Positions 13,494 to 26,890 of a stretch of DNA of 29,401 bases are shown one piece after another. The stretch is from the IMG/VR virus record IMGVR_UViG_3300010885_066742, positions 1-29,401 of that record. The stretch is one strand, 5' to 3'. This DNA is from a virus. The notes beneath the pieces are model-generated. The model was given only the letters and a program-made list of their open reading frames with translations, was not told the DNA's origin and did no database searches. Every line of letters begins with the position of its first letter. The stretch's first letter is position 1. A program made the translations under genes and the position numbers.

Positions 13494-14507
13494 ATGGCAA
13501 ACTTGTTTAAACGTGCAGCAATCTTCACTGATCTGCATCTGGGATACAAAAGCAACAGTCAGCAATTTCTCACAGACTGTGAGAATTACATGGACTGGTT
13601 TATCAAATTGGCAAAAACCCAAGAATGTGACCTAGTCCTATTCCTTGGTGACTTTCATCACAATCGTAACAATATCAATATTGCTACCATGGATGTGAGT
13701 ATCCGTTTGCTGGAACGACTGAACACAGAATTTCCACGTGTGATGTTTATTCCTGGTAATCACGACTTGTATCACAAGGATCGCAGAACACTCAACAGTG
13801 TCAGGTATATTGAAAAATTCTCAAATATACAGCTGATCAACGATCAGTATACCGAAGGTGATGTGACATTTGTACCCTGGCTTATCGGCGAGGAATATAA
13901 AAACATGCGTAAGGTTCGTAGCCAATACGTGATGGGTCACTTTGAGTTGCCTCATTTTAAAATGAATGCCATGGTGGAAATGCCGGACCACGGTGAATTA
14001 CAGACAGATGACTTTAATAACTGTGGTATGATTTTTACCGGGCATTTCCACAAGCGTCAGCAAAAAGGCAATGTACATTATATTGGCAATGCTTTTCCCC
14101 ACAACTATGCTGATGCTTGGGACGATGAGCGTGGTGCAGTGATATTGGAATGGGGCCAACAGCCAGTTTATCACAACTGGACTGCTGCACCGCGCTACCG
14201 TACCCTAACGCTGGCACAGATGTTGGACGAGCCTGAAAAACATCTAGATGAGCGGACACATGCCCGTGTGCAGCTGGATATTAGTATCAGTTATGAAGAA
14301 GCCAGTTTTATTCGTACTGAAATGCAAAAATTATACAATGTACGTGAACTCAGTCTCATACCCAACAAAAACGAAGTACTAACCGAATCGGCTATTGGCG
14401 AAGTGGCCTTTGAAAGCGTGGATCAGATAGTACTGAGTCAGATTTCCGGATTGGACACCCAGCATTATGATCAGAGATTGCTGATGGAGATCTATAATAA
14501 TCTATGA
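13494..14507 (+). CDS. gp47: Recombination endonuclease subunit gp47 (Mre11-like nuclease)
   Basis: Mn-dependent metallophosphatase that pairs with gp46 to resect DNA ends for recombination-dependent replication and repair. All phosphodiesterase motifs are present in order: FTDLHLGY (Asp13, His15), LFLGDFHHN (Asp53), FIPGNHDLYH (Asn89, His90), the VMGHFELP motif at about 147-153, and FTGHFHKRQ at 182-189. The length of 337 residues is normal for T4 gp47 (339). The gene overlaps the start of the sulfotransferase gene by 4 bases (ATGA), so gp47, the sulfotransferase and gp46 are probably on one message. The assignment is firm. Confidence 0.95.
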   Translation: MANLFKRAAIFTDLHLGYKSNSQQFLTDCENYMDWFIKLAKTQECDLVLFLGDFHHNRNNINIATMDVSIRLLERLNTEFPRVMFIPGNHDLYHKDRRTLNSVRYIEKFSNIQLINDQYTEGDVTFVPWLIGEEYKNMRKVRSQYVMGHFELPHFKMNAMVEMPDHGELQTDDFNNCGMIFTGHFHKRQQKGNVHYIGNAFPHNYADAWDDERGAVILEWGQQPVYHNWTAAPRYRTLTLAQMLDEPEKHLDERTHARVQLDISISYEEASFIRTEMQKLYNVRELSLIPNKNEVLTESAIGEVAFESVDQIVLSQISGLDTQHYDQRLLMEIYNNL

Positions 14508-15178
14508 AAAAGATACATTATTGTAATATCGGAATACAAAAATCCGGTACAACCTGGTTGTATAGAAAACTTTTGGAACACCCTGAGGTGGATTTTAAAA
14601 GCATAGACGATAAGGAAAATCATTTTTTTTCACAAAAATTTAGTGATAAAAATGATTACTTAAAACTTTATGAAAACTATGATGTGACATTGAATTTCAG
14701 CACCCAATTATATGCTATCCATCCCAATCTGATAGAATACTTGGACGAACATGCCACACATATTAGCATAATACTGAAAAATCCTTTCGATTGGCATCAG
14801 AGTTTTTATTGGTTTTGTCTAGATACAGGTGTTTTTACCAGTGAAACAGATAAAGATTTCGATGTATTTTTTAATACCATAATGGTTAAAAAATTTGTAA
14901 GTTACAATCATTGGATTAGTTTATGGAATAAAAGATTAAAGAATAACAAATTAAAGATTTTTTTATATGATGATCTAGTGAAAGATTATCAAAGTTTTTA
15001 TAATGATGCTACAGATTTTTTAGGATTATCCAGAAGAAAAGCGTATAATAACAGACTATTAGTGACAAAATACAAAGGCAATTATGATTTTAAAGATCAT
15101 GAAATCCGTTTCTTCAATGAAGAAATAGAAAAATTGCAGGAAATTTGTGATTTAGATGTTGAACATTGGAAAAGATAG
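14504..15178 (+). CDS. Sulfotransferase-family protein inserted between gp47 and gp46
   Basis: Product of 224 residues of the P-loop sulfotransferase family, which moves a sulfuryl group from PAPS to a hydroxyl or amine of a sugar, lipid or protein. The 5'-phosphosulfate loop is clear at residues 9-20 (IGIQKSGTTWLY). A family-typical KENHFF follows at 38-42. The 3'-phosphate-binding motif is seen at 91-103 (LKNPFDWHQSFYW), with Ser100 and a Lys-Asn-Pro in place of the usual Arg-Asn-Pro. The gene is clearly more A+T-rich than its neighbours, with many A and T runs, so it may have been gained separately. It overlaps the gp47 stop by 4 bases and ends 6 bases before gp46. The substrate cannot be read from sequence; virion or host-surface glycans are possible. 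Confidence 0.8.
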   Translation: MKKIHYCNIGIQKSGTTWLYRKLLEHPEVDFKSIDDKENHFFSQKFSDKNDYLKLYENYDVTLNFSTQLYAIHPNLIEYLDEHATHISIILKNPFDWHQSFYWFCLDTGVFTSETDKDFDVFFNTIMVKKFVSYNHWISLWNKRLKNNKLKIFLYDDLVKDYQSFYNDATDFLGLSRRKAYNNRLLVTKYKGNYDFKDHEIRFFNEEIEKLQEICDLDVEHWKR

Positions 15179-15184
15179 ATTATA

Positions 15185-16957
15185 ATGTTAGAGCTTAGTA
15201 GTTTGACTGTAAAGAATTTCATGAGCGTGGGCAACAACACCCAGGCCGTGAACTTTGACCGTAGAGACCTGACCTTGGTGTTAGGTGAAAATTTAGATTT
15301 AGGAGGTGATGATACTGGAGCCAGAAATGGCACGGGTAAAACCACAATCATCAACGCCCTGAGTTATGGTCTCTACGGTCAGGCGTTGACTAACATCAAG
15401 AAAGACAATCTGATCAATAAAACAAATGGTCGTAACATGCTTGTGACCGTAGAGTTCAGCATCAACGGCAAACAGTATCGCATCGAGAGAGGTCGCAAGC
15501 CAGCTATCACTAAACTGTATATAGATGGAAATGAGCAGACAGATTACACAGACAGCAGCCAGGGCGACAGTCGTGAAACACAACACGACATCGATCGTCT
15601 GCTGGGCATGAGTGTGGACATGTTCAGGCATATTGTAGCACTGAACACATATACAGAACCTTTCCTCAGCATGAAAGTAAACGATCAACGACAGATTATC
15701 GAGCAGTTATTGGGCATCACTATACTCAGCGAGAAAGCAGATGCACTTAAAGAACAGATCAAACGCACAAAAGATCTGATTGCAGAGGAAAAAATCCGCA
15801 TCAAGGCTGTACAGGATGCCAACGAGCGTATCGCTACCCAGATCGATAATCTAAAAAAACGTCAAAAACTTTGGATCGCCAAGCAGGAAGAAGACTGCAA
15901 CAAGCTGGAACGCAATATCAGAGATCTGGCTGAAGTGGATATTGATGCTGAAATTGCCAATCAAAAATTACTCACAGACTATCATGATCGTATCAAAAGG
16001 AAAGCAGATGCGGAACGGTGGATTAAAAGCATACAGCAAGATCAGGCTAAGGAAGAAAAAACTGCTGCCAAGCTGGAAAAAGAGATCGCTGATCTGGAAA
16101 ACCACACGTGCTATGCTTGTGGCGGTGCGCTCCGCGATGAGAAGCACCAGGAAGTCCTGGCTGCTAAACGAAAACAACGACAAGAGTGCGCCCTACAGCT
16201 TTTGGCATTGAACACTCAAGAGTTAGAACATCAGGCAGTGATCACAGAAGTAGGTGACATTGGCAACATGCCTACGGTGATATATGACACATTAGAACAA
16301 GCATTGAATCATCGCAACACACTGGAACAACTGGTAGATCAATTAAATCGTCGCAGTGAAGAAGCTGATCCTTATTCAGAACAGATCACAGATATGGAAA
16401 CCACTGCGCTGGAAGAAATTACTTGGGATCAGATCAATAATCTCACACTAATACAAGATCATCAGGAGTTTCTGCTCAAGATGCTCACAAGCAAAGACAG
16501 TTTTGTACGCAAGAAGATCATCGATCAGAACCTGGCTTACCTGAATAATCGTTTGGCTGCATATCTGTCAGCTATTGGATTACCTCATGAAGTCAAGTTC
16601 CAGAACGATCTGTCTGTGGAAATCACTGAGCTAGGTCGTGATCTTGACTTCGATAACTTGAGCCGTGGTGAACGTAACCGTCTGATCCTGTCCCTGAGCT
16701 GGGCATTCCGTGATGTATGGGAAAGTTTGTATCAACAGATCAACTTGCTGTTTATCGACGAACTGATCGACTCAGGAATGGATGCATCAGGTGTGGAAAA
16801 CAGTCTAAGTGTGCTTAAACGCATGAGCCGTGAACGCAACAAGAGCATCTTCCTGGTAAGCCATCGTGATGAACTATCTGGTCGTGTCAACAACATCCTC
16901 ACTGTTACGAAAGAAAACGGTTTCACAACCTTTGGGGCTGATGTAGATATTTTATAA
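15185..16957 (+). CDS. gp46: Recombination endonuclease subunit gp46 (Rad50-like ATPase)
   Basis: SMC-type ATPase partner of gp47. The Walker A motif is at residues 48-54 (NGTGKTT), preceded by a glycine- and aspartate-rich loop. Long charged coiled-coil arms run from about 185 to 305 and 325 to 440, with a zinc hook between them (HTCYACG, Cys309 and Cys312). The ABC signature is LSRGERNRL at 492-500. Walker B is LLFIDELID at 521-529, followed by the D-loop SGMDASG and the switch His560. The length of 590 residues is normal (T4: 560). All elements needed for ATP-driven regulation of the nuclease are present. The assignment is firm. Confidence 0.95.
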   Translation: MLELSSLTVKNFMSVGNNTQAVNFDRRDLTLVLGENLDLGGDDTGARNGTGKTTIINALSYGLYGQALTNIKKDNLINKTNGRNMLVTVEFSINGKQYRIERGRKPAITKLYIDGNEQTDYTDSSQGDSRETQHDIDRLLGMSVDMFRHIVALNTYTEPFLSMKVNDQRQIIEQLLGITILSEKADALKEQIKRTKDLIAEEKIRIKAVQDANERIATQIDNLKKRQKLWIAKQEEDCNKLERNIRDLAEVDIDAEIANQKLLTDYHDRIKRKADAERWIKSIQQDQAKEEKTAAKLEKEIADLENHTCYACGGALRDEKHQEVLAAKRKQRQECALQLLALNTQELEHQAVITEVGDIGNMPTVIYDTLEQALNHRNTLEQLVDQLNRRSEEADPYSEQITDMETTALEEITWDQINNLTLIQDHQEFLLKMLTSKDSFVRKKIIDQNLAYLNNRLAAYLSAIGLPHEVKFQNDLSVEITELGRDLDFDNLSRGERNRLILSLSWAFRDVWESLYQQINLLFIDELIDSGMDASGVENSLSVLKRMSRERNKSIFLVSHRDELSGRVNNILTVTKENGFTTFGADVDIL

Positions 16958-16965
16958 TTATTATT

Positions 16966-17481
16966 ATGCCCAGTCCCAGTAAAAACAAAGGCAACGCATG
17001 GGAACGTGACGTAGCCAAACATTTGTCCGAACTCTTTGGAGAAACCTTCATCCGTGCACCAGGATCTGGTGCGTACATCGGTGCAAAAAATGCCCACCGT
17101 AAACAGTTTTTACATGAAGGTCAGATTCGTAGCTTCAAAGGAGACATCATTCCTGGACAAAGTTTTCCCAAGTTCAACGCTGAATGTAAAAGCTACAAAG
17201 ATTTTCCTTTCCACCAACTGTTTTCTGGTAGTGTAAATCAACTGGACACTTGGTTGGATCAACTGATGGCTGTAGCAGATGCAGATGATTTCAGCATATT
17301 GATCATGAAGTTCAATCGCAAAGGGAAATATGTGGCTGTGGAATTTGATAAGGCAAGTGATTTGCCCTTGTTTGTGGAAAATCACTTCCTGTACACTTTC
17401 AAAGACAAACGCTGGGCATTTATGGAGTATGATGCTTTCTGGCGCCTCAATAGTGATTTTGTAAAAATATCGTGTAGTTGA
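16966..17481 (+). CDS. PD-(D/E)XK nuclease, probable Holliday-junction-resolvase-like enzyme
   Basis: Product of 171 residues with the compact restriction-endonuclease-like active site of archaeal Hjc-type resolvases. The order is KGNAWERDVAKHL (Glu13), RAPGSGAYIGA at 30-40, FKGDII (Asp60) and FNAECKSYKD (Glu73, Lys75), the typical E...GD...ExK set. A structure-specific or junction-cleaving role fits its place right after gp46. It could stand in for T4 endonuclease VII (gp49), which is an unrelated fold, but no gp49 can be looked for outside this window. A repair or packaging nuclease is the alternative. The gene starts 9 bases after gp46 and overlaps the next gene by one base (TGATG). Confidence 0.68.
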   Translation: MPSPSKNKGNAWERDVAKHLSELFGETFIRAPGSGAYIGAKNAHRKQFLHEGQIRSFKGDIIPGQSFPKFNAECKSYKDFPFHQLFSGSVNQLDTWLDQLMAVADADDFSILIMKFNRKGKYVAVEFDKASDLPLFVENHFLYTFKDKRWAFMEYDAFWRLNSDFVKISCS

Positions 17482-18698
17482 TGACCCAGATAATCAAGTT
17501 AAAAACCTGGCAGGATTTATGGACGACTCATGCTGGACCACATTACAATGTGGCAGGTAAAAAAGTTTTTAATAAATTGGATGCCATAAGAGAAACTAAA
17601 AAGATAAGCATAGAAACAAATACTCACATCTGGCAGATAATGAGCTGGGATTGTTTCCACGATCAATTAAAAGATTGCAACTTTAATCTGGAATCTGAAA
17701 AAACTTATCAACAGTTGTGCATAGATCGTGCCCGTCAGCTCAGGGAAAAATACAGCTACATCAGATTGTGGTACAGCGGCGGCCCTGACAGTCATACTAC
17801 ATTACGCAGTTTTCATCTGGCTGGTGTTAGTCCAGATGAGGTGGTAAACATTTGCAACAGCACCTGGGGTTACGATCAGGAACCCAATGTGGAATCTTTG
17901 GGATTGGTAAAACCCAACTTGTTTCGTATTAAAAACTGGTTTCCTAACGTAAAAATAAAATTTTTAGATTATATCCACGATGCCAATTTAAAAAACTTTG
18001 ACGGCGAAGATTTCAAAAGCAAGTTGGATAGGAAAGAAATATATGGTCCTTTGACCAGAACCATGTCTGATGGTTTCGATCTGGACAATACCATGATAGA
18101 TCCCTATTATGCAGGCAATGTGTGTGAATTGGTGGGGGAGCCCAAACCTAATCTGGTGAAAAAAAATGGCAAATGGTATGCTTATGTCATGGACAACCAG
18201 ATAGACACTTGTTTATTGCTACCCAATTTGGAAATGTTCCATCTGAGTCCTGATATGCCCGAACTGTTCATAAAGCAGTGCCACATGCTTAAAAGAGCAT
18301 ATCAACAACAGATAATGGAAAATTCCGAAAGTCACAGCATGATATTAAATCGTGATACTATCGGAAAAAACAAATACCTGGAAAGATATAACATGTGGGA
18401 TATCAATTCGTACAGCCTGCGCCAGCAGCAATTTGCTAAAAAATTCACACCAGGTGGTGACACTAACACGCACTATATGATGTACAAGTGGGCCATGGGT
18501 AATCCACATTATAAAAAATATCATGAACAACTAAGAGAATTCCTATTCAAGGAAATTTTTGATGTTTATCCAGAATTTTTCAATACTGGTGAGATTTTTA
18601 AAAACTATGTGGGCATGATGAGCATGTTTTGGTGCTTGGACGAACATGCAAATTGTAACACAGATCAATTATGGCCTCTGGGTTTCGGCACTTACTAA
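17481..18698 (+). CDS. PP-loop (N-type ATP pyrophosphatase) family protein
   Basis: Product of 405 residues with the PP-loop motif YSGGPDSHTTL at about residues 98-108, preceded by a hydrophobic strand (YIRLWYSGG). This is the nucleotide-binding signature of enzymes that adenylate a substrate with ATP, such as PAPS reductase, asparagine synthetase, QueC and tRNA thiolases. Beyond the motif no specific subfamily was recognised. The rest is aromatic-rich, with a conserved-looking IDPYYAGN at about 200 and no CxxC metal site. The ATG at 17481 is preferred; an in-frame TTG lies one codon earlier. It sits between the nuclease genes and the transporter cassette. An adenylating or amide-forming role in modifying a small molecule or macromolecule is possible, but the substrate is unknown. 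Confidence 0.72.
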   Translation: MTQIIKLKTWQDLWTTHAGPHYNVAGKKVFNKLDAIRETKKISIETNTHIWQIMSWDCFHDQLKDCNFNLESEKTYQQLCIDRARQLREKYSYIRLWYSGGPDSHTTLRSFHLAGVSPDEVVNICNSTWGYDQEPNVESLGLVKPNLFRIKNWFPNVKIKFLDYIHDANLKNFDGEDFKSKLDRKEIYGPLTRTMSDGFDLDNTMIDPYYAGNVCELVGEPKPNLVKKNGKWYAYVMDNQIDTCLLLPNLEMFHLSPDMPELFIKQCHMLKRAYQQQIMENSESHSMILNRDTIGKNKYLERYNMWDINSYSLRQQQFAKKFTPGGDTNTHYMMYKWAMGNPHYKKYHEQLREFLFKEIFDVYPEFFNTGEIFKNYVGMMSMFWCLDEHANCNTDQLWPLGFGTY

Positions 18699-18865: not shown

Positions 18866-19777
18866 ATGAAAATATTTACAAATCTGCTTTTAGCATTAGC
18901 CATCAGCCTTTTACCAGCCATGGCACAAGCACAGACAGCCAAACAACCTGTTATAACTATCGTCCAAGGAGAAAGCCCTGGCGGCGGAGGTGTTGGTTTG
19001 CAAAATCAAATCATGGATGCACTACGCAATCACTATGAACAAGTGAATGTCATCAGCGTGGGCAACTGTGATCGTGCTGCACAAATCTACAATAGTATAA
19101 ACGACACACCAGTGGCTTACATGTATGCTGCTGAATTCTTGTATCTCAAAGACATGGGTATGCACACATGCGGTGTTAAAGTCACACCAGAAAACATCTG
19201 GATGCACGCCGAGATGACCCAGGGATTTTGTACCAAAGGTCCAGGACCAGTGACATTCGAAGACTTTAAAAAGAGCAAGACCTTTGCTAGTATCTTGCCA
19301 CAAAGTCTCACCGACAGCATGGTAGATCAGATCAACAAAGAACTCAAGACTGATATTAAAAAGATACCCTATAATGGTGGTAGCGGTCTTGCACTCCCAG
19401 CTATTTTAAATGGCGAAGTTGATTTTGCGCCTATCGCACTGTTTAGAATCCAAGACATGTTGGAAGACAAACGTGTGGCTTGCTTTGCCAAATACAGCAA
19501 AGGCAATGATAAACTTCCTGGAATCCGCGAGTTTATTCCTGGATTTACACTGGGAAATTATGTTTTCAACAACGTAGGTGTGGCAAAAAACATGAATGCA
19601 GAACAACTTACATTCTTGCGTAACAGTTTCCAGACACAAATCAAGAAAGGTACAGTGCTAAGAACTAACCTGGACAAGGTCATGTGGGAATTGAACGAAG
19701 GCACAAACATGGATCTGTATGCTGCTTGGCAGAATCAGGAAAATATCCTAAAAACAGCTATGAAAGCAGCTAAATGA
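18866..19777 (+). CDS. tctC: Periplasmic solute-binding protein of a tripartite tricarboxylate transporter (TctC/Bug family)
   Basis: Product of 303 residues. An N-terminal signal peptide (MKIFTNLLLALAISLLPAMAQAQ, given here in part: basic start, hydrophobic 5-18, AQA cleavage site at about 20-22) directs export to the periplasm. The mature part resembles TctC/Bug proteins: ITIVQGESPGGGG near the start in the place of the usual PAGGGxD loop, a VAYMYAAEF segment, ILPQSLTD, IPYNGGSGLALPAILNGEVDFA at about 172-193 (the most diagnostic stretch), and NNVGVAKNMN. Four cysteines could form disulfides. Bug proteins bind carboxylates such as citrate and deliver them to TctA/TctB. The ligand is not predictable here. 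A strong AAGGAG lies 5 bases before the ATG. The stop overlaps the tctA start by ATGA. Confidence 0.87.
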   Translation: MKIFTNLLLALAISLLPAMAQAQTAKQPVITIVQGESPGGGGVGLQNQIMDALRNHYEQVNVISVGNCDRAAQIYNSINDTPVAYMYAAEFLYLKDMGMHTCGVKVTPENIWMHAEMTQGFCTKGPGPVTFEDFKKSKTFASILPQSLTDSMVDQINKELKTDIKKIPYNGGSGLALPAILNGEVDFAPIALFRIQDMLEDKRVACFAKYSKGNDKLPGIREFIPGFTLGNYVFNNVGVAKNMNAEQLTFLRNSFQTQIKKGTVLRTNLDKVMWELNEGTNMDLYAAWQNQENILKTAMKAAK

Positions 19778-21126
19778 CCTTTGATTTATTAAACTTGGTA
19801 CCAGTATTACTGGGTATCCTGATAGGTTTAATATCTGGTGTATTGCCAGGTGTAGGAATGATCAGTATCACTGTGATATTCCTGCCCTGGCTTTGGCATC
19901 TCACAAGCATACAAATCATACTGTGGTATGCCACAGTATTGATAACCGAACAATTCATAGGCAGTGTCATAGCTACCTACTATGGTGTACCAGGACAAGA
20001 GAATCACTGGCCAGCAGTGCTGGAAGGTTTTCCCATGTATCAACGTGGTGCAGGACCTGAAGCTATCCAAGCAGCAGCGTTCAGCCATATCATTGCCCTG
20101 TTGCTCAGCATGGCATTATTGCTCATAATAGGCAATTATAGCATGACACTTGCATTGGTTTTCGATACCAAATTGCAATTTGCTATAATCATCATGGTAG
20201 TCCTAGGTGTCTGTGCTTTAAGTAAAGATCCCTGGTACGTTAAAATCATCATGTTGATTGCAGGAACAATTTTAGGTTTCCTAGGAGATCTAAACAGGAT
20301 GTATTTGCATTATGATATAACTGTTACTAATGGTATAAATTTCAACGATGGAATTCCTGTTATACCCTTCTTAGTGGGAATTTTTATTATACCCAATAGT
20401 TTAAAGAATCATGTTACTAATATAAACATCATACAAGTAGAACAAATAAAAGCTAAATTTTCAGATTTTACACACTGGATCACAAGTCTTTTCCACAGTT
20501 TCCTAGGATTTATATTTGGACTGACACCCATGTTGACAGTGGATGTGGCCAGCAATGTCAGTTATAATGTACAAAAATGGTGGAGAGAACGCACTGGGAG
20601 ATATGATAAAGACGGCGATGTTACCTGTTTAGTAGCTAGCGAAAGTGCTACCAATAGCGGTGCTGTCATCAGTCTGATGCCACTATTATTGTTTGGTATT
20701 CCCATCACTGCCAGCGAATCTCTGGTTTACAGCCTACTAAACACCAAAGGTTACAGCTTCAGCATCACTAATTTTGACAAATATCTTTTACCAGAAATAC
20801 TGAGTTTTCTATTACTGGTAGGATTTATCAATTATTTGATCAGCGGCCCGCTCAGTGCATACTTTGCCAAATTATACGAAAAACTCAGTACACATGCTAC
20901 ATTTGTTTTGGTTGCCATAATGGTGGGGAGCGTTTTGTATCAGGGGTATAATTTGTATCTGTTAAAAGAGTACTTGACAGTGCTGATTTTATCATTTATA
21001 ATAGGGTATAGTTTGCGAAAGTATAACTTCTATACACTGATATTCTGCTTTTTGATGGCAAACCACACGTTTGACATCTTTATTCGTACTTGGGCTTTTT
21101 TAAAGATATATACTACAGGCACATAA
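19774..21126 (+). CDS. tctA: Tripartite tricarboxylate transporter permease, large subunit TctA
   Basis: Integral membrane protein of 450 residues with about ten to twelve hydrophobic helices, slightly shorter than usual TctA (about 500). The first conserved motif, GVLPGVG, is in the first helix pair (residues 24-30), followed by YYGVPGQENHWPAVLEGFPMYQRGAGPEA. The second half has the inverted-repeat counterpart ASESATNSGAVISLMPLLLFGIP, matching the family APExxNNA...PLLxLGIP pattern. TctA imports carboxylates using the ion gradient and ligand from TctC. The start overlaps tctC by 4 bases. No tctB (the small four-helix subunit) is present, so the pair may rely on host TctB or work without it. 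Assignment as TctA is firm; its use by a phage is unusual. Confidence 0.93.
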   Translation: MTFDLLNLVPVLLGILIGLISGVLPGVGMISITVIFLPWLWHLTSIQIILWYATVLITEQFIGSVIATYYGVPGQENHWPAVLEGFPMYQRGAGPEAIQAAAFSHIIALLLSMALLLIIGNYSMTLALVFDTKLQFAIIIMVVLGVCALSKDPWYVKIIMLIAGTILGFLGDLNRMYLHYDITVTNGINFNDGIPVIPFLVGIFIIPNSLKNHVTNINIIQVEQIKAKFSDFTHWITSLFHSFLGFIFGLTPMLTVDVASNVSYNVQKWWRERTGRYDKDGDVTCLVASESATNSGAVISLMPLLLFGIPITASESLVYSLLNTKGYSFSITNFDKYLLPEILSFLLLVGFINYLISGPLSAYFAKLYEKLSTHATFVLVAIMVGSVLYQGYNLYLLKEYLTVLILSFIIGYSLRKYNFYTLIFCFLMANHTFDIFIRTWAFLKIYTTGT

Positions 21127-21590: not shown

Positions 21591-21785
21591 TTAAAAATAT
21601 GGAAGACCTGACTTCTTGGTAGTTTCCATATTATCGCTGACGATCTTACCGATGATGTCTCTTTCTTTCATACTCATGTTCATGGCTTCGGTATATGACA
21701 CACCACCACGCATGTGCCAGACCATCCTGAGTACATTATCTTTTATTTTTTTCACGTCAGCTTCATAACGAGCCACTAGAGCCAT
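21591..21785 (-). CDS. gp51: Hub assembly protein gp51-like (downstream frame of a probable gp26-gp51 frameshift)
   Basis: From its own ATG this is a 64-residue helical protein (MALVARYEADVKKIKDNVLR, then MVWHMRGGVSYTEAMNMS, ending KSGLPYF). It occupies the place of T4 gene 51, whose product is needed for hub assembly, and resembles small tail-assembly chaperone parts. It has no convincing ribosome-binding site. Upstream, its frame stays open without a stop back through the end of gp26, where it lies in the -1 frame relative to gp26 and meets a slippery heptamer at 21824-21830. It may therefore be made mostly as a C-terminal extension of gp26, like lambda gpG-T. Direct initiation at 21785 remains possible. 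The gp51 name rests on position and general similarity. Confidence 0.6.
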   Translation of the reverse strand: MALVARYEADVKKIKDNVLRMVWHMRGGVSYTEAMNMSMKERDIIGKIVSDNMETTKKSGLPYF

Positions 21786-21805
21786 GATCTCAGGTTGATC
21801 GAGCC

Positions 21806-22648
21806 TCAGGATAGTGGAACGAAAAAATTTGCGTAATCGAAGCTGACCTCCACATTATACTGGTGTTCACAAGCATCACATTGAACTCTGGCTGGTGGAA
21901 TGGACATGTCTTTGGCATAATCCTGCAACTGTGATTGTACTGTCTTGATGATGTTGTTGCTGGTATTGTTGTAAAATTCTTCAATATAGTTTTTATCTGT
22001 GACAATATCATTGTTTTCAGTCATGATAAATTCAGTGCTTGCTACCAGAGTGGAAATATTTAATTCAATGATCTTTTTAAGGTGCAAATCAAACTGAGCA
22101 GTTTTTGTGTCAGTAGGCAGATCATCGTTGCTGATAAGATCTATTAATCTCTGTTGTTCGAAATTTATCATGCTATTTTTGTTCTGATTGAAATAACTCA
22201 CAGGTTTTAGTTTGATTTGCAACCCTTCCACATGGATCGTCTTGCTGTAATCAGGACTTTTCAATCTCATCAAGATATCACCCAATCCCAGTGCGTGGCG
22301 ATTTTCGCCCTTGCAAGCAGGACAGTTGGTGTCCATGTCCATCTCATCACCATAGGTGGCGATACGTATGGCTATCAATATGGCATCCACATCTATGCTT
22401 GGTGTGCTCCAGGCATTTTTGATAGCAGGACAGCAGCTCTCGATAACACTTACCACACCTTGGCCGTTCATCAAAGCATCAGGTGTGCGTAACAATATCT
22501 CATCTCTGGCGGTCATGGGCATCACACCTATTTCCCCATTGGCAGGCAAGTCCAGGCTATCTGGTGCCCAATGTTGCCCTTTGCTGGGAAGTTGAAGAAA
22601 AACCGCAGGTTGGCGGAAATGGCCGCTGAGAGGATTAGTTGATTGCAT
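21806..22648 (-). CDS. gp26: Baseplate hub protein gp26-like, probable tape-measure chaperone
   Basis: Product of 280 residues resembling the gp26-type T4 baseplate family: an N-terminal FLQLPSKGQHW segment, VMPMTARDEILLRTPDALMNG, VIESCCPAIKN, and LIAIRIATYGDEM. Two CxxC pairs, CPAC at about 117-120 and CDAC near 259-262 (before the DYANFF end), probably bind zinc. gp26-type proteins belong to the hub and tape-measure assembly pathway, and its closest gene is the divergent tape measure. A GGAAG lies about 9 bases before the ATG, and a perfect late box TATAAATA about 42 bases upstream. The last codons contain A AAT TTT TTC, a candidate -1 frameshift site into gp51. T4 gp26 is shorter (208 residues). 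Confidence 0.73.
   Translation of the reverse strand: MQSTNPLSGHFRQPAVFLQLPSKGQHWAPDSLDLPANGEIGVMPMTARDEILLRTPDALMNGQGVVSVIESCCPAIKNAWSTPSIDVDAILIAIRIATYGDEMDMDTNCPACKGENRHALGLGDILMRLKSPDYSKTIHVEGLQIKLKPVSYFNQNKNSMINFEQQRLIDLISNDDLPTDTKTAQFDLHLKKIIELNISTLVASTEFIMTENNDIVTDKNYIEEFYNNTSNNIIKTVQSQLQDYAKDMSIPPARVQCDACEHQYNVEVSFDYANFFVPLS
21824..21830 (-). promoter_or_regulatory. Candidate -1 ribosomal frameshift slippery heptamer (A AAT TTT)
   Basis: On the minus strand the gp26 frame reads GCA AAT TTT TTC near its end, giving the canonical X XXY YYZ heptamer A AAT TTT. Slippage by -1 moves both tRNAs to AAA and TTT and continues as TTT CGT TCC ACT ATC with no stop, entering gp51 in frame. The gp26 stop follows only five codons after the heptamer. 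No strong downstream hairpin was found by eye, so efficiency cannot be judged. Confidence 0.6.
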
Positions 22649-22708: not shown

Positions 22709-25045
22709 ATGGCTACAGAATATGACGATCTGAAAAAAACCCTCTCAGCCCCGGAATTGGATGCGTTCAAAGCATCTATCAAAGCTGCATCCGATCGTTT
22801 CGGAGGATTATCTGGTGCGCTTAAAGCATTGGAAGCCAGAGGAAAATTGCTGGATCAGGGAATCATAGCACAAAAAGACAGCATCAGTGCATTAAATCGT
22901 GCTCAACGCGAATATAAGGAAGAAGTACGTCGTGTAAATTCTGATGTAAAAGCAGGCAGATTAACCAGTCTGGAAGCTAGAGTCGAATTAGAAGAACTGG
23001 CAGACAACTTTAAAAAAGCCACTAGTCTCATGGGTCCAGACGCCCAACAAAAGGTGGCAAAATTTGTTGCAAGTCAAAATGCTGCTGCTTCAGCAGCTAA
23101 TGTTTTAACAGAACGATTTGCTAAATTTACCCCTGCTCTAGCTATGACAGGAAATGTGCTTACAGGTTTCGCAAGACATGCTGATGCCATAATGAGCAGC
23201 AGTACCAGTCTGGGATCAGGATTAGCATTAGCTACCGCTAGTGCTGATGCGGCTGGTAGCGGATTGCGAGCGGCAGGTAAAGTGATACAAGCTGCTGCTC
23301 CAGCTATCGGGTTACTGGGTCCGGCAGCACTGCCTTTGATTCCCATAATAGGTATCATCGGAATAGTATTGGAAGGTTTGGGAGAAGGCTTTAAGAAAGT
23401 AGCAGAAACTGCCATACCTCTGCTGAATAAAAATATAGAAATCATGGCCGGCAGTTTCATGCAAGCAAGCAGTGCTGGTGCCTTTTATGCAAATGGCATA
23501 ACAGGACTCATGGATCAAGCAAAAACTGCTGGTGTTGACATGGGAACATTCAGCAAAACACTCAAAGAAAATAGCGAATCTGTGGCACTGTTTGGTGGAG
23601 GTATGATAAATGGTGCACGTAGAATAGCAGACGTAGGAAAAATCATCAATTCCAGCGGTATTAGTTCAAGACTGCAAAATTTAGGATATAGTTTAGAAGA
23701 AATTCCAGGACTTGTGGCTAAAGTCGGCGCAGATATGGCAAGAAGTGGTAAAGGAGCTACCAGCCAACAAGTTGCAGAAGCCACAGAATCATACGCTAGA
23801 AATCTCAGACTTATAGCATCTGTCACTGGTCAAGATGCCAAAACACGTATGGCGGAACAGGAAGCAAAAAGCAGAAGCTTACGTTTTCAACAAGAATTGT
23901 CTAAGATGGATCCGCAACAGGCAGCTTTGGTAAATCAAAATTTAGCTGCATCTGACGATTTAGTGGGCGACATGGTCAGAGACATGGTTAAAAACAAAGG
24001 GCAGATAGTAGATCCAGCTCTTGCTACCACAGGCAGTCTGTTTCCTGCCATGGCAGAACAGGCTAAAGAATTATATGAGCGTATGAAAAGCGGCACTATG
24101 ACCGAAACAACCGGTTTCGAAATTAGACAAAAATACGCAGAGCGTATGAAAACAGAACTTGCTAATGCTGAAGCAGTTGCTCAAGCAGCAGCTTTAGGCG
24201 TGTCTGGTTTAGGTGAACTAAGTGACAAACTGGGTAAAAGTTATGAAGGGGCATTGAAGTTTGCTGATCCTGATGCATTTAAAAAAGCTAAAGAAGCCCA
24301 AGATGCTCAAGCTACTACCACTGATAAAGTGACAAAAAATATAAATGAATTAGCAGTACAAGGTATGGAAGCTAAAACTGCACTTCAGAAACTTACTGTT
24401 GAAGCATTGGGACCTTACACTGAAACGGTAAAAAGATTAAACGAAGAAACTTTAAAAATCATAAGAAAGTTCACAGGCACAGAATCTACTAGTAATGCGG
24501 ATACTGGTGGCCGTGGCACTGTTCAATCTGTAGAAGCAGCAAGGGCTAATCTAGAGGCAGCAAGAGGTGCATCTGTAACAACGAACGATTATGGACAGAT
24601 CACAGCAGATCCAGAAACTCAAGCTAGGATGGATCTCGCTCAAGCTCAAAGAGAACAGCGTATTCGAGAACAAGTTCGTGCTATAAGACAATCAGAAATA
24701 AGATGGGATCAAACAGATGGGGAAGCAAACGGTGGTATTGTTTCAGGCAGTCCAAAAGGATTTTTATCTAAACTGCATGGCACAGAAGCTGTCATCCCAT
24801 TACCAGATGGATTGAAGGGAAATGATTTTTACGAAGCATTGCAAAATAGTTTAAAAAATAACGCCACTTCCACCAATGCTTTTAGCCAGACAGCTGCATT
24901 GCCAGAAGTATTTCAAAAGACAGCTGACAATAGCACAGAATCGAATGATTTGATGCGAAGCCTGGTGGACAAAATGCAAGAGCTTATCGACGTATCCAAG
25001 AATGTGGCTTCTTACACTGAATTAACCAGTGCCAGAGTTTCATAA
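22709..25045 (+). CDS. Tail tape measure protein (gp29 role)
   Basis: Protein of 778 residues that would sit inside the tail tube and set its length. It is mostly Ala/Lys/Glu-rich helix with coiled-coil pattern (residues 1-135 and 330-600). A strongly hydrophobic segment lies at 192-223 (QAAAPAIGLLGPAALPLIPI and onward), as in many tape measures that reach the inner membrane. The C-terminal GGIVSGSPKGFLSKLHGTEA then VIPLPDG motif (675-701) is a hallmark of phage tape measures. T4 gp29 has 590 residues; at roughly 1.5 angstrom per residue this one fits a tail of about 115 nm (inference). AGGA lies 4 bases before the ATG. It is divergent from gp26-gp51, its probable chaperones, and runs toward the portal gene. 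Confidence 0.85.
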   Translation: MATEYDDLKKTLSAPELDAFKASIKAASDRFGGLSGALKALEARGKLLDQGIIAQKDSISALNRAQREYKEEVRRVNSDVKAGRLTSLEARVELEELADNFKKATSLMGPDAQQKVAKFVASQNAAASAANVLTERFAKFTPALAMTGNVLTGFARHADAIMSSSTSLGSGLALATASADAAGSGLRAAGKVIQAAAPAIGLLGPAALPLIPIIGIIGIVLEGLGEGFKKVAETAIPLLNKNIEIMAGSFMQASSAGAFYANGITGLMDQAKTAGVDMGTFSKTLKENSESVALFGGGMINGARRIADVGKIINSSGISSRLQNLGYSLEEIPGLVAKVGADMARSGKGATSQQVAEATESYARNLRLIASVTGQDAKTRMAEQEAKSRSLRFQQELSKMDPQQAALVNQNLAASDDLVGDMVRDMVKNKGQIVDPALATTGSLFPAMAEQAKELYERMKSGTMTETTGFEIRQKYAERMKTELANAEAVAQAAALGVSGLGELSDKLGKSYEGALKFADPDAFKKAKEAQDAQATTTDKVTKNINELAVQGMEAKTALQKLTVEALGPYTETVKRLNEETLKIIRKFTGTESTSNADTGGRGTVQSVEAARANLEAARGASVTTNDYGQITADPETQARMDLAQAQREQRIREQVRAIRQSEIRWDQTDGEANGGIVSGSPKGFLSKLHGTEAVIPLPDGLKGNDFYEALQNSLKNNATSTNAFSQTAALPEVFQKTADNSTESNDLMRSLVDKMQELIDVSKNVASYTELTSARVS

Positions 25046-25099: not shown

Positions 25100-26890
25100 G
25101 TGGCTGGATGGAAGAAACATTTTAGGATAGTAAGTGATGGCGCCTATAGTCCAGTAAATGGCAGCGTGACTGACTACAGCAGTTACAACTATCTGGGAAG
25201 CCAGGCTAATGCAGCCTACAGAAACTATCAGAGCATGTTGCCTGATGTTTATTCAGGTCATCCCAATCGTATCGACAGATACAGCCAATACGAAAACATG
25301 GATCTGGATAGCGAAGTCAACGCTGCGATCGACATCCTAGCCGAGTTTTGCACACAGACGAGTGAAGATACCAACACCGCTTTCGACTTCCATTTCCACG
25401 AAGACGCTACTGAAAACGAGATGATGATCCTGAAAGAACAGCTGAAAAGCTGGTACAGTCTCAATGAATTCGACCAGCGTGTGTTCAAGATATTCCGCAA
25501 CACATTGAAATATGGCGATCAGATCTTTATTCGTGATCCAGAAACCTACAAGTGGTACTGGTCAGAGATGAACCGTGTAAGCAAAGTCATCGTAAACGAA
25601 AGCCAGGGCAAAGTTCCTGAAGTCTATTACATCCGTGACCTAGCACCCAACTTGCAGAACAACACCATCACCAGACCCCCTGGTCCCAACGACACTTATG
25701 CACATGCTCCTTACATGGGCGGCAGTCGCAGCTATACAGCTGGTGGCGAAGTGTTTAGTCCCAACACCAGATTTGGTGCTGGCAACAACGAATTTCCAGT
25801 GGGTGCAGAACATATCGTGCATCTGAGTCTGACAGAAGGGCTGGATGTGAACTGGCCGTTCGGTGTCAGTATATTGGAAAGCATCTTCAAAGTGTTCAAA
25901 CAGAAAGAACTGCTGGAAGATGCTATCCTGATCTATCGTATCAGCCGCGCACCTGAACGTCGCATGTTCAAGATCGATGTGGGCAACATGCCTGCACATC
26001 TAGCCATGCAGTTTGTAGAGCGTGTTAAAAACGAAATCAATCAGCGTCGCATACCCACACAGTCAGGTGGCGGCAGCAACTTGCAAGATGCCAGTTACAG
26101 CCCCATGAGCATGAACGAAGATTTCTTCTTCCCACAGACAGCTGACGGTCGTGGTAGCAGTGTGGAAGTGTTGCCAGGTGGACAGAACCTGGGCGAGATC
26201 GATGACTTGCGCTTCTTTACTAACAAATTATACAGAAGTTTGCGTATTCCGTCAAGTTATTTGCCCACTGGTCCAGAAGATTCAGAACGTCAGTTCAATG
26301 ACGGCAAAGTCACCACAGCACTGATCCAGGAATATCGTTTTAACGAATACTGCAAGCGTTTGCAGAAATACATTGCGCCCAAGTTTGATACTGAATTCAA
26401 GATGTTCCTCAAATGGCGTGGATTCAACCTGGACAACAGCATCTTCGAACTGAGATTCAACGAGCCTCAGAACTTTGCTGCTTATCGTGATGTGGAATTG
26501 AATGTCAGTCGTATCGGTGCTTTTACACAGATACAGGCTACAGAGTTCCTGAGCAAGCGTTTCATGCTCAAGAAGTATCTGGGTCTCACTGACATAGAAA
26601 TGGCAGAAAACGACCAGTTGTGGCACGAAGAACGTGGCACACAAGAATCCAACAATAAGTTGCAGGGCAGTGATCTGCGTAACGTGGGTGTTACTCCTGG
26701 TGCTATCAACACTGATTTGGACACACTGGGTGATATCGAAGCAAATCCTGATATGGGTCCAGAAGGTGGACCAGTGTCAGGACAGGAAGGTCCACAAGGT
26801 GAAGTTGGTGCTGGCGGTGTAGCTGGTACCATGCCTGGTGCTGGTGGCGGTGGTGGCGCTGGCAGTGCCGCTGGTGCAGGTGCTATATAA
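25100..26890 (+). CDS. gp20: Portal vertex protein gp20
   Basis: Dodecameric channel at the head vertex through which DNA is packaged; it also starts prohead assembly and docks the terminase and neck. Its 596 residues are typical (T4 gp20: 524). Family stretches are clear: RIDRYSQYENMDLDSEVNAA at about 54-73, the IDILAEFCTQ continuation, FRNTLKYGDQIFIRD, the EDAILIYRISRAPERR segment and RIPSSYLP. The start is a GTG at 25100 with AAAGGA 9 bases upstream; a nearby ATG is out of frame. The C-terminal 60 residues are Gly/Pro/Ala-rich and end in a poly-glycine tail, longer than in T4. It leads the head-gene cluster. Confidence 0.92.
   Translation: MAGWKKHFRIVSDGAYSPVNGSVTDYSSYNYLGSQANAAYRNYQSMLPDVYSGHPNRIDRYSQYENMDLDSEVNAAIDILAEFCTQTSEDTNTAFDFHFHEDATENEMMILKEQLKSWYSLNEFDQRVFKIFRNTLKYGDQIFIRDPETYKWYWSEMNRVSKVIVNESQGKVPEVYYIRDLAPNLQNNTITRPPGPNDTYAHAPYMGGSRSYTAGGEVFSPNTRFGAGNNEFPVGAEHIVHLSLTEGLDVNWPFGVSILESIFKVFKQKELLEDAILIYRISRAPERRMFKIDVGNMPAHLAMQFVERVKNEINQRRIPTQSGGGSNLQDASYSPMSMNEDFFFPQTADGRGSSVEVLPGGQNLGEIDDLRFFTNKLYRSLRIPSSYLPTGPEDSERQFNDGKVTTALIQEYRFNEYCKRLQKYIAPKFDTEFKMFLKWRGFNLDNSIFELRFNEPQNFAAYRDVELNVSRIGAFTQIQATEFLSKRFMLKKYLGLTDIEMAENDQLWHEERGTQESNNKLQGSDLRNVGVTPGAINTDLDTLGDIEANPDMGPEGGPVSGQEGPQGEVGAGGVAGTMPGAGGGGGAGSAAGAGAI

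Follow-up and report, generated by a model that had tools for sequence, protein, structure and literature searches.

Frameshifting in the G/T tail-assembly chaperone genes has been described as conserved in long-tailed phages 'except T4' (2016 recoding review, Atkins et al. 2016, PMC5009743). In phage lambda, a short form (G) is accompanied by a minor -1 fusion (G-T), for which ribosomes slip shortly before the upstream frame ends (PMC5009743), and the tape-measure gene lies downstream of G-T in the same transcript. The tail-assembly chaperone genes of T4-like phages were treated by Vladimirov, Gautam & Davidson 2022 (Virology 566:9-15), a study that we cite as it is represented in PMC10885494 and PMC12846349. 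According to these citing papers, T4-like chaperone genes are known to contain poly-T frameshift signals (PMC12846349), and some T4-like phages dispense with frameshifting and have a short gene plus a long, fused one (PMC10885494). Because the citing papers report these results, we treat frameshifting in T4-like phages as a known phenomenon that appears already to be published, and the statement in the first-pass annotation of the DNA studied here, that no T4-like gp26/gp51 example was established, does not hold as far as these citations go. The chaperone gene of phage Adele (Vandenendeviridae / Andersonviridae) likewise uses a -1 frameshift at a poly-T motif (GTTTTT) near the gene end (PMC12846349). 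For jumbo phages of the RaK2 / Atu_ph07 type, a literature search of limited coverage found no paper that describes such frameshifting in the chaperone gene.

A review (PMC3004832) counts both gp26 and gp51 of T4 among the hub assembly chaperones and describes gp51 as required for assembly and not present in the particle. The cyanophage proteins annotated as gp51 have only about 20% of the length of others and resemble the C-terminal region of T4 gp51 (Sullivan et al. 2010, PMC3037559). In the present analysis this cyanophage 'gp51' corresponds to the -1 frame continuation of gp26; frameshifting does not appear in the main text of that paper.

The DNA analyzed here, referred to below as the window, is the whole 29,401-nucleotide stretch of IMG/VR record IMGVR_UViG_3300010885_066742. 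It carries a single gp26-like gene which, judging from its sequence and that of its relatives, very probably yields two proteins, a short and a long form, by -1 programmed ribosomal frameshifting. The features at this locus are as follows.

21806..22648, minus strand: gp26-like gene encoding the short form (280 aa), the zero-frame product, of the T4 baseplate-hub / tail-assembly chaperone family.
21827..21821, minus strand: slippery heptamer T_TTT_TTC, conserved, encoding Phe-Phe (residues 275-276).
21830..21824, minus strand: heptamer A_AAT_TTT, overlapping T_TTT_TTC and one codon upstream of it, found in few relatives.
21591..21821, minus strand: -1 frame extension of 76 codons starting at CGT, followed by TAA at 21593..21591.
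21591..21785, minus strand: 64-aa open reading frame (ORF), an ATG-started fragment within the extension, earlier called gp51; the ATG is absent from relatives.
21773..21817, minus strand: possible stimulatory hairpin CCACTA...TAGTGG, 3 nt past the heptamer.

The short product matches PF12322 (T4_baseplate; E=5.6e-16, above the curated cut-off) and phrog_150 (baseplate hub; E=8e-20), and is the only PF12322 match in the 29.4-kb window record, which is itself a fragment. An AlphaFold2 model of gp26 (pLDDT 86.7) resembles predicted viral proteins of the gp26 family (best TM 0.88-0.89), and comparison with solved structures by sequence, Foldseek or VIA-align gave no significant match. The locus resembles the T4-like chaperone genes of Vladimirov et al. 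2022, as described by the papers that cite it, in having a PF12322 domain, predicted short and long forms, and a poly-T -1 signal. It differs from T4 itself in being one gene with a predicted frameshift rather than two genes, and it belongs to a jumbo-phage group like RaK2 and Atu_ph07.

The 3' end of gp26 reads, codon by codon, GAT TAC GCA AAT TTT TTC GTT CCA CTA TCC TGA, with the stop codon at 21808..21806, and contains two overlapping -1 slip heptamers that are both in phase with the gp26 frame. The first-pass annotation placed a slip site near the gp26 end and named it as A_AAT_TTT; this heptamer is indeed present and in frame, but it is not the conserved one. A_AAT_TTT occurs in few relatives (L002, L003/L004, L005, L012), and because it is present only in some of them, we take T_TTT_TTC, which is the conserved heptamer, as the functional site. 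The -1 frame has a stop codon 49 nt upstream of the gp26 stop and is open thereafter to 21591, running through the 64-aa ORF as had been claimed, such that the predicted long form consists of gp26 residues 1-276 plus 76 residues, 352 aa in all. Among the 8088 codons of the 20 genes listed for the window, heptamers of the form X_XXY_YYZ occur in frame 42 times, and only the two at the gp26 end are followed by a -1 frame of at least 60 codons, which extends 212 nt beyond the gene end.

We surveyed viral contigs and phage genomes for the same arrangement, giving 129 loci from jumbo phages, cyanophages, and environmental contigs. A few contigs were entered twice, and among the 80 marine loci many resemble each other closely; for this reason statistics were computed on 28 representatives with less than 60% identity. 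Across all 25 gp26 sequences, no stretch proved well enough conserved for a profile search of viral contigs. An in-phase T_TTT_TTY lies near the gp26 end in 128/129 loci (T_TTT_TTC in 124 and T_TTT_TTT in four), with the heptamer usually starting 10 nt upstream of the gp26 stop, and in all 128 the -1 frame downstream is open, for 58 to 80 codons (median 62). The expectation that relatives would retain both the heptamer and an open -1 frame thus survived the comparison. The lone exception is a marine 236-kb contig (L096:1501-2390) that has one PF12322 copy, lacks the T run, and carries gp26 joined in frame to the extension; this long-only form is either natural or due to an assembly error. Another apparent exception, L006:63-900, was set aside, as its gp26 ends in an inverted repeat, seemingly an assembly fold-back at the contig end. 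A possible site lies 70 nt before the stop in L029, and no slip site was found in L031, a distant 484-kb phage.

The codon preceding Phe-Phe ends in T in every case, even as the residue it encodes varies among Asn, Ser, Ala, Arg, His, Asp, and Tyr, and from each gene's codon usage the joint probability of a T-ending preceding codon and TTT as the first Phe codon is about 1e-17 for the 28 representatives, a figure that assumes independent lineages where these are partly related. When 15 loci of the window's group are aligned as DNA, at a mean identity of 63%, the sole invariant 8-base run is TTTTTTCG, within which T_TTT_TTC lies.

Conservation of the -1 frame begins with the residues that immediately follow the slip (FFR...). 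With tblastn, the window extension matches the -1 frames of Atu_ph07 and Phosso from the slip site onward (E=5e-9 and 2e-8, respectively). These data bear on an alternative explanation, in which gp26 and a small downstream gene are separate, the latter being initiated at an ATG of its own through gene overlap or translational coupling, with no frameshift. The window does have an ATG at 21785 that could start a 64-aa protein; in the marine group and the cyanophages an ATG often lies three codons past the site, beside the gp26 stop, so that from the sequence there separate initiation is possible; and public annotations show a small hypothetical gene, a truncated gene, or nothing at the extension. 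Against this, in 21 loci, most of them from jumbo-phage relatives, the -1 frame has its first ATG only after 30 codons or more, even though its conservation begins at the slip site, and only frameshifting explains the conservation there. Separate genes would also leave unexplained both the phase and codon choice of T_TTT_TTY and the fusion of the extension onto a gp26 domain in T4 gp51 (see below), and we regard this explanation as very unlikely. The 64-aa ORF is probably no independent gene. Its ribosome-binding site is weak, as had been noticed before, because only GAG directly precedes the ATG. Nor is it a full gp51, as its earlier name implied: T4 gp51 has 249 aa, of which only the C-terminal ~48 residues would correspond to the extension. 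If frameshifting operates as we propose, the long chaperone form is absent or shortened in the annotation of several jumbo phages.

Slippage during transcription rather than translation could also yield a fusion, from mRNAs altered at the T run, and the site is indeed such a run. Six or seven T residues are a short run for slippage of bacterial RNA polymerase, the phase as a tandem-slip heptamer is constant, and enriched RNA structure downstream suits ribosomal frameshifting instead, making a transcriptional origin more doubtful still. This enrichment is seen at the level of the group: for the 60 nt past the site, z averages -1.75 over the 28 representatives and -0.38 over 214 control windows taken from these genes (Mann-Whitney p=3e-5). 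Strong downstream hairpins are predicted in P-SSM2, S-PM2, L010, L012, and L131, and their sequences differ. The window's own hairpin region is modest in a 111-nt RNA fold (z=-2.1) and weak, at a z of -0.5 that is not significant, in the test of 60 nt past the site. Downstream structure may stimulate slippage; we rejected the notion of one common stimulatory hairpin, since structures vary by lineage. A conserved Shine-Dalgarno-like stimulator upstream of the site was likewise rejected as a general feature; GGAGG occurs in some loci (the window, P-SSM2, S-PM2, and L137).

That the heptamer arose by chance, or that an assembly error split one long gene, is a negligible prospect: in-frame heptamers are not rare in the window and L096 has the long form fused in frame, but genomes of isolates from many laboratories and more than 90 environmental contigs show the same stop and heptamer, and no other window heptamer has a comparably long -1 frame.

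T4 gp26 (208 aa) and T4 gp51 (249 aa) both match PF12322 over its full length (E=8.8e-64 and 3.9e-52, respectively), and gp51 consists of the gp26 domain with ~48 extra C-terminal residues; on this sequence evidence the two proteins are paralogs. The extra residues are homologous to the -1 extensions of cyanophages and KVP40. For P-SSM2, the extension hits phrog_634 (baseplate hub assembly catalyst, gp51) with E=2.1e-29, and a profile built from the extensions of cyanophages, HTVC008M, phiM12, phiW-14, KVP40, and Aeh1 scores the T4 gp51 C terminus at 28.8 bits, compared with 12.1 bits for the best of 2000 shuffles, in an alignment that begins at the slip-site F. Extensions of the window's clade show moderate similarity to the T4 gp51 tail (hhalign probability 85.5%, pair E=5.7e-6, over 35 columns).

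T4 and RB43 each carry a short and a long PF12322 gene, neither of which has the slip site, and T4 genes 26 and 51 are mutually divergent. We searched 24 other records for PF12322, which comprised S-PM2, P-SSM2, HTVC008M, phiM12, phiW-14, KVP40, and Aeh1; the jumbo isolates Phosso, Atu_ph07, RaK2, BF, GAP32, PA5oct, Munch, XacN1, and PBECO4; and Vibrio 2.275, RAS14, SCTP-2, and five IMG/VR contigs. Exactly one copy is present in 23/24 of these, and 22 of the 23 have the site, with L096 as the exception; SCTP-2 had no PF12322 match at the threshold used. Both arrangements occur within Straboviridae, with KVP40 (L148) and Aeh1 (L147) having one gene with the slip site T_TTT_TTY, and RB43 (L146) and T4 having two genes without it. 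In a PF12322 domain tree, the 26 and 51 proteins of T4 and RB43 group together with weak support, a topology that is compatible with a duplication inside Straboviridae.

We consider it likely that U_UUU_UUY frameshifting is ancestral across the T4-like supergroup, including the jumbo phages of RaK2 / Atu_ph07 type, and that T4 genes 26 and 51 derive from a duplication within Straboviridae after which each copy kept one product, with KVP40 and Aeh1 representing the ancestral state. That T4's relatives frameshift while T4 uses two genes would be a simple account that fits the data. It would also explain why Aeh1 was reported to be without gp51 (PMC3037559), because Aeh1 keeps one gene with a frameshift site. 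The gp51 protein, which was called essential and of unknown function in a 2010 review, would gain a concrete identity as the long form of gp26, and the two arrangements offer a natural comparison between control of the product ratio by frameshifting and by separate genes.

In the mechanism that we propose, most ribosomes would finish gp26 at its own stop to give the 280-aa short form. A minority, with tRNA-Phe in both the P and A sites on U_UUU_UUC, would re-pair one base back and read 76 more codons, producing the 352-aa long form with its gp26 domain and C-terminal extension. In function, the short form would correspond to T4 gp26 and the long form to T4 gp51. If lambda gpG/gpGT is a guide, both would act jointly as chaperones while the hub and tape-measure complex is assembled, and would depart from it afterwards.

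The likeness to lambda G / G-T, which the first-pass annotation had proposed for gp26 and gp26-51, draws support from the anatomy of the locus, with a short form and a predicted minor -1 fusion made near the end of the upstream frame, and from the short (gp26) and long (gp51) members of the family that T4 carries as separate genes. Taken with the T4 and RB43 gene pairs, which lack the site, the locus would encode a short/long chaperone pair expressed as in lambda G/GT. The heptamer is different from that of lambda, and no sequence or fold link between window gp26 and lambda gpG was found, a missing match that leaves room for kinship. The arrangement of the neighboring genes differs as well.

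22709..25045, plus strand: 778-aa gene, putative tape measure by position, divergent from gp26.
25100..26890, plus strand: large gene in the place of the relatives' portal gene, following the 778-aa gene.

The claim that the tape measure is the next gene needs amending, as the putative tape-measure gene adjoins gp26 but is divergent from it, and is not downstream in the same transcript, unlike the tape-measure gene of lambda; the Adele gene, from another phage group, also lies upstream of its tape-measure gene. Because the neighboring large gene is divergent, we do not file this locus as a member of the lambda G/G-T class, and describe it only as working like one. The same divergent layout with the portal gene beyond is present in Phosso, RaK2, and PA5oct, and in RaK2 the annotation of the gene in the position of the 778-aa gene notes similarity to a tape-measure protein. 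The 778-aa protein has no profile match and no significant similarity to its counterparts in Phosso, RaK2, and PA5oct, so that its putative identity as the tape measure is based on position and synteny together with the RaK2 annotation. It has one hydrophobic segment (residues 202-224).

Several other genes on the plus strand of the window are of note. A 406-aa ORF (17478-18698) has no Pfam match, and a gene pair at 18866-21126 resembles tripartite tricarboxylate transporter components. The 303-aa protein of the pair begins with a signal-peptide-like segment and matches TctC weakly (E=0.03), and the 450-aa protein matches TctA (E=5.6e-54); no TctB-like ORF was noticed. TctC-like proteins were found in none of the phage records, and a TctA-like stretch in only five, at less than 25% identity. 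A sulfotransferase-like gene (14504-15178; PF00685, E=5.5e-10) is adjoined by a putative gp46-like nuclease-subunit ORF at 15185-16957.
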